Shown here piece by piece: positions 2,244 through 62,645 of a stretch of DNA of 64,000 bases; position 1 is the first letter of the stretch, and the number at the start of each line of letters is the position of its first letter. Origin of the DNA: Macrococcoides canis (lineage in GTDB: Bacteria; Bacillota; Bacilli; Staphylococcales; Staphylococcaceae); assembly GCF_002119805.1 (NCBI RefSeq), contig NZ_CP021059.1, positions 1,116,001 through 1,180,000 of the forward strand. Reading direction: 5' to 3'. Position numbers and translations under genes: made by a program. Under the pieces are notes generated by a model. The model saw only the letters and a program-made list of their open reading frames with translations. It did not search any database and was not told the DNA's origin.

Positions 2244-2978
2244 TTAATGTGCTAACATTTCTTCTTTTACTTCTATAGCAGATAGATCGTCAGGATAATA
2301 TGTTGGCCAGTTTTCAAGTTCATTTAGCAGCTGTTTACGGTCATCGCCCATATAGATATGGAAATGTAGTGCACGTTGGGGAGCTATAATATGATCGCTG
2401 AACTGTATATAGCCTGGTGCATCCTCGTCACCAGATACTTTTTTGAATATGTATCTAACGCCACGATTTCCTTTTTCATACGTTAGAATCTCTTTTCCAT
2501 CGTATGCGTACTCAGCTTTTTGTTTTTTGCCGTCTTTTGTGAAGGTGATTTCTTTTTCACCAATTTCGATATGAGAGACATCCGTTTTATATCCTTCTGT
2601 GTAGTAATCCTTTATTTCTTGCTTTGTTTTCTTCTGATCTTCTGCTTTGTGTTCGAATACTTCATCTAGTGATCCATCTTTTAAGAAGGGGTAAACGGAC
2701 TGCCAGCTTCCTTCCCAGTCAGTTAATTTTCGATCTTTCACTGCAGCATCTTCAAAATACCCGTTGTATATCTTTTGATCTGCTTCCGTCATATGATGCC
2801 CGTGCTCATGCCCATGCCCATGCTCATGCTCGTTATTATGACTTTCTGCATGTTCATCTTTATGATGTTCAGAAGCGTGATCTTTATGTACCACATCTTT
2901 ATTTTCATCAGTATCATTACAACCTGATAATAGGATAGAAAGTGAGACTGCCGTACCGATAATAAATTGTTTTTTCAT
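2244..2978 (-). CDS. zinT: ZinT-like zinc-binding lipoprotein
   Basis: 244 residues. A lipoprotein signal (ILLSGC, lipid Cys about residue 20) is followed by a His/Asp/Glu-rich linker (roughly residues 32-62, with HEHGHGHEHGHH) and a ZinT/YodA domain (LTDWEGSWQSVYPFLKDG at its start, ALHFHIYMGDD with ligand histidines near its end). ZinT proteins bind zinc outside the membrane and pass it to the ZnuA/AdcA importer. In many Firmicutes this domain is fused to AdcA; here it is free-standing. A perfect Zur box sits at the transcription start, so expression should rise when zinc is low. RBS GGAGA. Confidence 0.92.
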   Translation of the reverse strand: MKKQFIIGTAVSLSILLSGCNDTDENKDVVHKDHASEHHKDEHAESHNNEHEHGHGHEHGHHMTEADQKIYNGYFEDAAVKDRKLTDWEGSWQSVYPFLKDGSLDEVFEHKAEDQKKTKQEIKDYYTEGYKTDVSHIEIGEKEITFTKDGKKQKAEYAYDGKEILTYEKGNRGVRYIFKKVSGDEDAPGYIQFSDHIIAPQRALHFHIYMGDDRKQLLNELENWPTYYPDDLSAIEVKEEMLAH

Positions 2979-2989
2979 ATATATTCTCC

Positions 2990-3008
2990 AATCGTAATTA
3001 TTACGATT
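2990..3008 (-). promoter_or_regulatory. Zur box upstream of zinT
   Basis: AATCGTAATTATTACGATT is a perfect 9-1-9 inverted repeat and matches the Bacillus/Staphylococcus Zur consensus TCGTAATnATTACGA at every defined position. It lies just downstream of the -10 element, where bound Zur-Zn would block initiation. Confidence 0.93.
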
Positions 3009-3011
3009 TAT

Positions 3012-3040
3012 ATCTTACTTGAACTTATTCTATCCGTCAA
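3012..3040 (-). promoter_or_regulatory. zinT promoter
   Basis: On the minus strand, -35 TTGACG (3035-3040), 17-bp spacer, -10 TAAGAT (3012-3017). The start point would fall inside the Zur box. Confidence 0.7.
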
Positions 3041-3101: not shown

Positions 3102-3242
3102 ATGAAATTAACTTTAATCTTTAGTTATGTACTGTTATTATTTGTTTTAAGATATGGATTTGAAATAATCAATGATCAGGTAACACTTCTTCTTCTTATC
3201 GTTGGTTTAGCATTATTCGGATTTTCAAACAGAAAAAAATAG
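3102..3242 (+). CDS. 46-residue membrane peptide, unknown
   Basis: Short ORF with RBS GAAAGAGG about 10 bases before ATG. The peptide begins MKLTLIFSYVLLLFVLRYGF and has a second hydrophobic stretch (VTLLLLIVGLALFG) before FSNRKK, so one or two membrane segments with a positive tail. It ends inside the hairpin shared with the PspC gene. Function unknown; it resembles many small membrane peptides of Firmicutes. Confidence 0.5.
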   Translation: MKLTLIFSYVLLLFVLRYGFEIINDQVTLLLLIVGLALFGFSNRKK

Positions 3243-3268: not shown

Positions 3269-3478
3269 TTAGTAGTTATCCAGAATATCTGTATCTTTTG
3301 GCATAAATATTGCGAGTAGGATATAGATGGTAAATGTAGGGATATTCGCTGTTAAAAATGAGACTAAAATAAATACTACTCTGACAACTGTTGAATCAAT
3401 ATTAAAATATTCACTGATGCCACCAAGAACTCCGGCAACATAGCGGTCGGTTGTTGATCTTGCAAGACGTCTTTCCAT
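3269..3478 (-). CDS. PspC domain protein
   Basis: 69 residues covering one PspC domain: RLARSTTDRYVAGVLGGISEY, then NIDSTVVRVVFIL and a hydrophobic segment ending IYILLAIFMPKD. Such small inner-membrane proteins belong to envelope-stress responses (phage-shock protein C / LiaI-like context), although no partner is adjacent. RBS AGGAGTG on the minus strand. Confidence 0.85.
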   Translation of the reverse strand: MERRLARSTTDRYVAGVLGGISEYFNIDSTVVRVVFILVSFLTANIPTFTIYILLAIFMPKDTDILDNY

Positions 3479-3543
3479 ATGCTTTCACTCCTTTTTTAAA
3501 ATATAACAAATAAATAAAGGAACTTCCAATGATTTACTATTAT

Positions 3544-3568
3544 GTTTAACTTATAGCTTTAGGGGTAT
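3544..3568 (+). promoter_or_regulatory. Sigma-B-type promoter
   Basis: GTTTAA, 13-bp spacer, GGGTAT agrees with the SigB consensus (GTTTaa N12-15 GGGTAT) of Bacillus and Staphylococcus. It lies 32 bases upstream of a 22-codon ORF with an RBS and about 120 bases upstream of a strong terminator. Confidence 0.75.
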
Positions 3569-3600
3569 ATAAATAATATATTATTAAAGGGGATAGCAAG

Positions 3601-3669
3601 ATGGAAACAACAGAGAAGAAAAATGAAAAAGACATTTTAGAACAAGTGAAGACAATATTAGGTAAATAG
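3601..3669 (+). CDS. 22-residue peptide of a sigma-B-type transcript
   Basis: ATG preceded by AAAGGGG (about 7 bases away). The peptide begins METTEKKNEKDILEQVKTIL (22 residues in all, ending GK), charged with an amphipathic C-terminal half. With its own SigB-type promoter and a terminator 23 bases after the stop, it forms a compact transcript of about 160 bases. This is comparable in design to the S. aureus SbrA/SbrB small SigB transcripts, though no sequence relation is claimed. It may act as an RNA, a peptide or both. Confidence 0.5.
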   Translation: METTEKKNEKDILEQVKTILGK

Positions 3670-3691
3670 ATTTCTTTAATGAAACATTAAT

Positions 3692-3741
3692 AAACCCGAG
3701 CAATATTAGAACCGTTTCGTTCTAATTTGCTCGGGTTTTAT
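3692..3741. terminator. Strong bidirectional terminator downstream of lexA and the small sigma-B transcript
   Basis: Long stem aaacccgagcaa.attagaac / gttctaatttgctcgggttt with one bulge, then TTTA; on the minus strand an A-rich flank gives a weaker T-tract. Confidence 0.88.
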
Positions 3742-3812: not shown

Positions 3813-4433
3813 TTAAAATTCTCTGAACAAACCTACAACTTTACCGAGTACTGTTACTGAATCAAGGTAGAGTGGTTCCATTGTCTGATTCTCAGGCTGG
3901 AGTCGATATCGATTGTTTTCTTTGAAGAAACGTTTAACCGTAGCTTCATCTTCATCTGTCATCGCTACGATAATATCTCCATTTTCAGCGATGGACTGCC
4001 TTCTGACGATTACTTTATCACCGTCCAGGATACCGGCTTCAATCATACTTTCTCCGACAACTTCAAGAATAAATATGTCGCTATTATGACTAGAAGTAAA
4101 GTGCGCAGGTAACGGGAAGTACTCTTCAACATTTTCTATTGCAGTAATCGGGACACCTGCAGTAACCTTTCCGATGACAGGTACATGAATTGTAGCCTCA
4201 GAATAATCTTGCGAATTTTCACCGTGAACGATTTCGATAGCACGCGGTTTCGTAGGATCTCGTTTAATGTAGCCCTTTTCTTCTAGGCGAGAAAGATGAC
4301 CATGAACAGTCGAGCTTGAAGCAAGTCCAACAGCTTCTCCGATCTCTCTTACACTCGGTGGATATCCTTTAGTTGATACAATATGTTTTAAATATTCATA
4401 TATTTCTTCTTGTCTTTTAGTTAATTCTCTCAT
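3813..4433 (-). CDS. lexA: LexA, SOS repressor and self-cleaving protease
   Basis: 206 residues from the ATG at 4433, which has AAGGAGTG in front; an in-frame extension to 4529 runs back over the promoter and is rejected. The N-terminal winged helix-turn-helix (residues 1-65, [20 protein letters not shown]) binds LexA boxes; the C-terminal S24 domain shows cleavage site Ala92-Gly93, Ser129 (VVGESM) and Lys167 (ATVKRF). RecA-stimulated autocleavage derepresses the SOS regulon. A promoter with a LexA box over the -35 indicates autoregulation. Confidence 0.98.
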
Positions 4434-4579: not shown

Positions 4580-4801
4580 ATGACGATTAGAATTTCTAAG
4601 GAATTTATACTATATTTCATCTTATTTTTAATTATTACACTTTTTTCAGTACTTTATATAGAACAATCGCAAGCTATTTATTATAATGAAGCACCTGGTT
4701 TTACCGAACAGATAGGGGAACAAGATCGTGATAAATTACCCCATTCAGATTCATATCATGATCCCGTTTCAAATGGTGAAGTACTTGGTGTTGTAAATTA
4801 A
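4580..4801 (+). CDS. sosA: SosA-like SOS cell-division inhibitor
   Basis: 73 residues: short cytoplasmic start, one membrane segment (about 9-28, [19 protein letters not shown]), then an extracellular acidic tail. Size, topology and position divergent to lexA match S. aureus SosA and B. subtilis YneA, membrane peptides that delay septation during the SOS response. RBS AGGAGG. It sits under two or three LexA boxes. Sequence identity with SosA was not computed; the call rests on topology and synteny. The extracellular tail is the part known to be needed and proteolysed in SosA. Confidence 0.85.
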
Positions 4802-62452: not shown

Positions 62453-62473
62453 AAACAACATAACTAAATAATG

Positions 62474-62645
62474 AAACAGATGAGGCGCATCAATCATGAG
62501 TACATAACTTCCCTACTGCAATATGTTATGGAAAGGGTGCGATGCCGAAATATTAAATATGTTGCAGCATATTTAGTGTTGGATTCACAGGTTAAGAGCT
62601 AGGAATCTGTCATTATATTACTATAATGGAGTGCATCGCTTGTAT
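62474..62645 (+). promoter_or_regulatory. Lysine riboswitch (L box)
   Basis: Conserved L-box pieces in order: GATGAGGCGCATCAATCATGAGTA, a P2/P3 hairpin pair, GAAAGGGTGCGATGCCGAAA, an extended hairpin (AATATGTTGCAGCATATT) and a further hairpin around AGGAATCTGTC, then TGGAGTGCATCGC closing P1. Lysine binding should favour the terminator downstream and shut off lysC-asd. Confidence 0.9.

Follow-up and report, generated by a model that had tools for sequence, protein, structure and literature searches.

The window, by which we mean the whole stretch of 64,000 nucleotides of DNA analysed here, carries close to its beginning a small forward-strand gene that we term sbrB-like. As read from the sequence, its SigB-type promoter consists of a −35 element, GTTTAA (3544..3549), and, 13 nt after it, a −10 element, GGGTAT (3563..3568). 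A ribosome-binding site, AAGGGG (3587..3592), precedes a 22-codon ORF (3601..3669, METTEKKNEKDILEQVKTILGK; ATG at 3601, TAG at 3667-3669) for an SbpB-like micropeptide of 22 residues and net charge 0. Folding places a predicted intrinsic terminator at 3692..3739 on the same strand, with a single bulge in its hairpin and a short run of T residues, and the predicted transcript from the SigB-type promoter is ∼ 160 nt long. The stretch 3575-3741 is more stable than its own shuffles (z −5.6), to which the terminator hairpin is an obvious contributor. The hairpins of two other genomes (G004 and G006) lack the bulge found in the window, and by eye both of their arms have changed together relative to it. 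On the reverse strand lexA (3813..4433) converges on the sbrB-like gene; it was matched at E ≤ 1e-60 in 107/108 family genomes. Beyond it, and divergent from it, a 73-codon ORF (4580..4801, forward strand) occupies the place of sosA and is named by position as in S. aureus (PMC8745188). A scan for sigma-70-type promoters listed no forward-strand site between 3409 and 4515. An initial annotation had described promoter, ribosome-binding site, ORF and terminator as one compact unit, and direct reading found each of them in place. Its remark that the 200 bases hold nothing else is nearly right: the 3′ end of lexA (3813, reverse strand) converges on the unit, and the hairpin at 3692-3739 is possibly shared by the two genes. 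That annotation did not mention the lexA neighbour, and the phage copies described below lay beyond its knowledge.

The sbrB-like locus gave no Rfam family at gathering score; the only Rfam match in the window is a lysine riboswitch (RF00168) at 62472-62644 on the forward strand. The gene is adjoined by a small ORF for a membrane-type peptide (∼ 3105-3242, forward strand), and Macrococcoides bohemicum (L031) has a like ORF near the same place. Divergent from the sbrB-like promoter is a reverse-strand ORF (3269-3478) that we take to be PspC-like; many staphylococci and three loci of a second family, f2, have a CAP-like ORF there. Further upstream, a His-rich lipoprotein-like gene (2244-2978, reverse strand) is preceded by the palindrome AATCGTAATTATTACGATT at ∼ 2992-3012. 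We assume this lipoprotein ORF to be ZinT-like, ORF 79-705 to be ZnuA-like and ORF 719-988 to be S14-like; together with the palindrome they resemble a cluster for zinc starvation that includes a Zur box.

Conservation of gene, promoter and peptide

A profile (A2) built from 19 lexA-linked peptides matched all 9 genomes of the genus and, at E ≤ 0.01, 83 of the 108 genomes of the family, in which the reversed-letter profile had no match. The peptide match was convergent with lexA within 3 kb in 68/108 family genomes, and the distance between the two was 32 to 263 nt in 66 of these 68. A looser pattern, applied to the lexA ends of the remaining genomes, yielded 15 more ORFs (the scanned regions of G017 and G076 end at contig ends). 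Five further matches carry a SigB-type motif and stand beside a CAP-like ORF, a name given by eye; lexA is distant from them or on a different contig, or the match stands where a contig ends. By these mixed criteria, 88/108 family genomes have an sbrB-like ORF. The gene is dispensable, since the other 20/108 are without it by the same criteria, some species clearly so. Inspection by pattern and by eye found no such ORF between the CAP-like ORF and lexA in G072, G074, G077, G103, G034 and G095. The lexA-linked copy of G062 (C1:1317124-1317183) has a stop codon within the matched frame and is possibly decayed.

Sampling across the order gave A2 matches in 72/120 genomes, 12 of them from family f2. 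Three f2 loci (L285-L287) have the order CAP-like ORF, SigB-type motif, peptide, lexA; another, L283, gave no output in the locus comparison. The 13 matches in a class-wide sample of 200 genomes all came from f1 or f2. SigB itself scored above the curated cut-off in the window's own genome and in 50/60 genomes searched. No SigB scored above the cut-off in the ten genomes of family f4 searched, and f4 is absent from the order-sample matches. SigB-bearing genomes of g7, g9, g10 and g12 gave no peptide match in the first searches, so that the presence of SigB does not imply that of the peptide and the correlation is unclean.

The promoter pattern GTTTAA-N12..14-GGGTAT occurs once on the forward strand of the window and not at all on the reverse strand. 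The 2.36-Mb genome has 22 copies of a looser form, GTTT-N14..17-GGGTAT, and the reversed control has 18; the motif alone is therefore little proof, and its weight comes from its conservation. Extraction from 84 lexA-linked loci gave 80 ORFs with 77 distinct upstream stretches, close relatives included; four loci (G011, G016, G062 and G109) yielded no ORF under the start and Shine-Dalgarno filter. GTTT-N12..17-GGG[AT][AT] was present within 130 nt upstream of 72 of the 80 ORFs. Over 50 rounds of dinucleotide shuffling of the 80 upstream stretches the mean was 4.3 and the maximum 10, and the reversed and reverse-complemented stretches gave 0. GTTT and GGG are separated by 15 or 16 nt in every one of the 72 motif-bearing genes, and the motif lies 26-29 nt from the ATG in 54 of them. 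As for the exceptions, G005 has GATT for GTTT, and G009 and six genomes of genus g4 are without the pattern. The g4 loci without a SigB motif by pattern (L187, L189, L190, L192, L193 and L194) have, by eye, a long upstream block in common, which suggests a promoter change in this genus.

The conserved peptide core reads [KE]DILExVKx[IV]L. Within D-I-L-x-x-V-K, all 80 ORFs have the same D, L and K, 72 have the I and 64 the V, and the synonymous codons used vary. In Macrococcus and Macrococcoides most of the lexA-linked peptides contain KDILEQVK. The corresponding cores are EDILEKVKDIL in S. lugdunensis, EDILEKVKDVL in S. nepalensis and S. cohnii, and EDILDRIKKLL in S. coagulans; all four staphylococcal ORFs have a SigB-type motif, which in S. 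lugdunensis is GTTT-N16-GGGTAA. Comparison of the window species with its two nearest relatives gave a pN/pS of 0.05 and a peptide identity of 91-100%. All three species share the same −35 and −10 hexamers and the same AGGGGATAG ahead of the ATG; identity is 62-69% over the promoter spacer and 45-70% over the 20 nt that follow the stop codon. Terminators vary among species in both sequence and position. A whole-genus pN/pS of 0.63 was discarded as invalid, equal-length ORFs having been compared without allowing for a one-codon shift. Length (22-34 residues) and net charge (−4 to +8) differ widely among the 80 ORFs, so that ‘basic peptide’ is not a family trait. The core is probably a short amphipathic helix: its amphipathic moment is mildly above that of shuffles, 0.01 to 0.05 of same-residue shuffles reaching it. 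The core may bear some likeness to helix I of acyl carrier protein. Searches of PHROGs and NCBIfam with five peptides gave no family up to E 5. Sub-threshold Pfam matches to Dehydrin (0.12) and WHEP-TRS (0.032), and the single match of a PDB search with the family profile (E 0.57), were taken as chance.

Copies of the core in phages

Besides the lexA-linked copies, A2 found 46 matches elsewhere in the 108 genomes. Five are chromosomal; the other 41 fall into 40 loci, two matches within one locus of G066 having been counted once. From their neighbours we infer that these 40 loci are prophages. The upstream ORF was taken as that ending between 260 nt before and 60 nt after the start of the match. 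Pfam classed 14 of the 40 upstream ORFs as dUTPase (trimeric), 6 as dUTPase_2 (dimeric) and 14 as MazG, and PHROGs classed 15 as MazG-like, 14 as dUTPase and 6 as members of a nucleoside triphosphate pyrophosphohydrolase family. The upstream enzyme thus belongs to one of three families at 35/40 loci (14 trimeric and 6 dimeric dUTPases and 15 MazG-like); the counts are those of the family searches, and enzymes were assigned to individual loci by reading the ORF letters. The five upstream ORFs outside these families are those of L150, L160, L162, L163 and L029, and in L160 a dUTPase-like C-terminus overlaps the micropeptide ORF. Dimeric dUTPase and MazG belong to one all-alpha superfamily, and the three enzymes therefore represent only two unrelated folds. 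Trimeric dUTPases have no structural relationship to dimeric ones (PMC5608427, PMC6770826).

Start calling left 2/45 loci without an ORF, L163, which was read by eye, and L166; both are among the 40. With the heuristic start, the small ORF begins before the upstream ORF ends in 35/38 loci, always in another frame; in L150 and L162 the overlapped ORF is none of the enzymes. Because of this overlap the N-terminal residues are often encoded, out of frame, by the end of the enzyme gene, and they differ with the enzyme. The last ∼ 13 codons are alike, mostly KDIL(E/D)(R/K)V(K/R)E(V/I)L(G/N)K (39/40 cores extracted, 35 of them distinct). For the phage set pN/pS came to 0.24-0.27, a value biased downwards by the selection of its members for peptide similarity. 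Of 38 prophage-like copies, only L028 was flagged for a SigB motif. In the window's own genome a prophage-like copy lies at 1,536,392 (E 3.6e-7), by reading with a TTG start, behind a MazG-like ORF. The f2 copies L281, L282 and L284 follow, as judged by eye, a trimeric dUTPase-like ORF, a short ORF with a dUTPase ending and a dimeric dUTPase-like ORF respectively. In L150 (G066) the micropeptide core forms the C-terminus of a DUF1381-like ORF, presumably a fusion or recombination product, and the core is matched again a few hundred bases off.

Public phage genomes (50,697 records) were searched by tblastn, at E up to 10, with three phage-type peptides. These matched 144, 38 and 32 records, in sets that overlap and include many weak matches. 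The hosts were Staphylococcus in 143, 35 and 30 cases; the others were three Mammaliicoccus records and single records from Pseudomonas, Streptococcus and Xanthomonas. The window peptide gave no tblastn match in the same records. All five records examined, StB20, 42E, Sazerac, Lacachita and 2638A, carry no gene annotation for the core ORF. The gene before it is MazG-like in Lacachita and a dUTPase in the other records, of which 42E leaves that ORF unnamed; four of the five have a rinB-like annotation within the stretch. In other phage records the match falls on a listed hypothetical protein, which could be either the core ORF or the gene after it. A profile search of viral_contigs returned 137 pattern stretches and no confirmed relative, and a degenerate DNA pattern hit one contig there, for which no qualifying ORF was printed. 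The open-access literature, together with few subscription journals, yielded no earlier report of the phage copies of the core or of the Macrococcoides gene.

Proposed role and likeness to known systems

By position and sequence the window gene appears to be the Macrococcoides counterpart of staphylococcal sbrB, and it adds a member to a gene family that is known but poorly understood. The best joint explanation, which we hold with considerable confidence, is that this counterpart of sbrB would be driven by SigB and code for a probably helical peptide that would dock on a host protein, which phages would engage as well. Active SigB would give rise to the ∼ 160 nt transcript and hence to the 22-residue micropeptide of the SbpB family, whose working part, the short helix [KE]DILExVKx[IV]L, would dock on its host protein while SigB is active. 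Phages of the same hosts would use the same core to engage this protein. By virtue of its position, the gene would incidentally yield lexA antisense RNA when its terminator is read through. The fact that one micropeptide follows enzymes of unrelated fold is a hint that the common target is a host protein rather than the enzyme as a partner. The idea that a single helical module serves both the host (under SigB, at the lexA locus) and its phages (with dUTPase/MazG-like genes), acting on one and the same host protein, is more tentative, and we would put it somewhat short of even. If so, the common protein may be of importance to DNA or nucleotide metabolism; the peptide would be the fixed element of the pair, and the enzyme, of which there are two or more unrelated folds, the one that can be swapped. 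Common descent of the chromosomal and phage copies is not proved, as the core is only ∼ 12 residues long.

The shortness of the comparison also leaves room for the chromosomal and phage peptides to be unrelated look-alike helices. The phage ORFs would then be relay ORFs that couple translation of the enzyme to that of the next gene, their last codons acting as the Shine-Dalgarno sequence of the latter. We regard this as rather unlikely. A Shine-Dalgarno-like run does occur in the last 15 nt plus stop codon of 31/39 phage-type copies, and most of the ORFs overlap the upstream one; however, the run is absent in 8/39 copies, the conserved DILxxVK lies outside the Shine-Dalgarno codons, and a profile made of lexA-linked peptides only finds the phage copies with E values to ∼ 1e-7 per genome, against none in 108 genomes for the reversed profile. 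Translational coupling and a peptide function may both be true. A chance ORF behind a chance promoter can practically be dismissed: the loose SigB pattern is indeed common in this AT-rich genome, but ORF, promoter and position are conserved over two families. Such conservation in relatives had been named beforehand in the initial annotation as one of the points on which its proposal could fall, and it was found when searched for.

There is a slim chance that the functional unit is a trans-acting or dual-function small RNA in which the ORF is incidental or secondary. The compact, strongly terminated design would suit such an RNA, and a review states that in S. aureus the SbrB peptide is translated in some strains only and suggests a dual role (PMC3861533). 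Set against this are the retention of the peptide core through many synonymous changes, the drift of the promoter spacer and 3′ region between the closest species, terminators that vary in sequence and place, and the lack of an Rfam family at gathering score at the locus; in addition, sbrB is listed as a coding and not as a regulatory RNA gene in PMC5826253. The choice that the initial annotation had left between peptide, RNA or both thus leans to the peptide, the core being kept as the RNA around it drifts, even if the review grants the S. aureus peptide to some strains only. We see very little likelihood that the locus is mainly a SigB-driven source of lexA antisense RNA through read-through, with the peptide as a passenger. 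The convergent layout is that of S. aureus, where a strain with a mispaired sbrB hairpin reads through the terminator and makes lexA antisense RNA (PMC8745188), and the one bulged base of the window hairpin is absent in two sister species. Layout alone, however, explains neither the conservation of the peptide nor the phage copies away from lexA, and changes in the sbrB terminator were found in 571/10,399 S. aureus genomes, so that read-through variants are a minority there (PMC8745188).

The conserved ∼ 12-residue core occurs across two families of the order and again behind phage dUTPase/MazG-like genes, which provides a handle on its presumed binding partner: the core is a small conserved bait present on both the phage and the host side. 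The data also suggest that a staphylococcal phage locus studied for its dUTPases and for pathogenicity-island induction carries an often overlooked small gene. The phage copies are the part of these results most likely to surprise the specialist.

In S. aureus, sbrB was first described by Nielsen et al. 2011 (as cited in PMC8745188). It is SigB-dependent and lies downstream of lexA on the other strand, tail to tail with it; it starts 9 bp after GTTT-N16-GGGTAA and gives a 145-nt transcript for the 38-residue SbpB, which is called basic (PMC8745188). SigB dependence of the promoter was established with a reporter, alkaline stress induces it, and translation of SbpB was seen with a gfp fusion; in the conditions tested, this translation left terminator read-through unchanged (PMC8745188, PMC12607899). 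The sources consulted here report no function for the SbrB peptide. The window gene resembles S. aureus sbrB in its SigB-type promoter, its short peptide-coding unit with a predicted terminator of its own, and its tail-to-tail arrangement with lexA and a sosA-like ORF beyond. Its peptide is unlike S. aureus SbpB in being 22 residues long and of net charge 0, but given the range of length and charge over the 80 ORFs we treat ‘basic, 38 residues’ as descriptive and not as defining. The peptide core was compared through S. lugdunensis, S. nepalensis, S. coagulans and S. cohnii, and S. aureus entered by its published description. The design of SbrA/SbrB, to which the unit had been likened from the start, is borne out on the side of sbrB by position, by the SigB-type promoter and by the core common to the lexA-linked ORFs of these four staphylococci. 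S. aureus sbrA, compared by description, is likewise a SigB-dependent small peptide gene (PMC3861533); the lexA neighbour is described for sbrB. The small ORFs of StB20, 42E, Sazerac, Lacachita and 2638A have, like the window peptide, a DILxxVKxxL-type core at the C-terminus; unlike the window gene, the phage ORFs are not beside lexA, their start mostly overlaps the enzyme gene and their N-terminus is variable.
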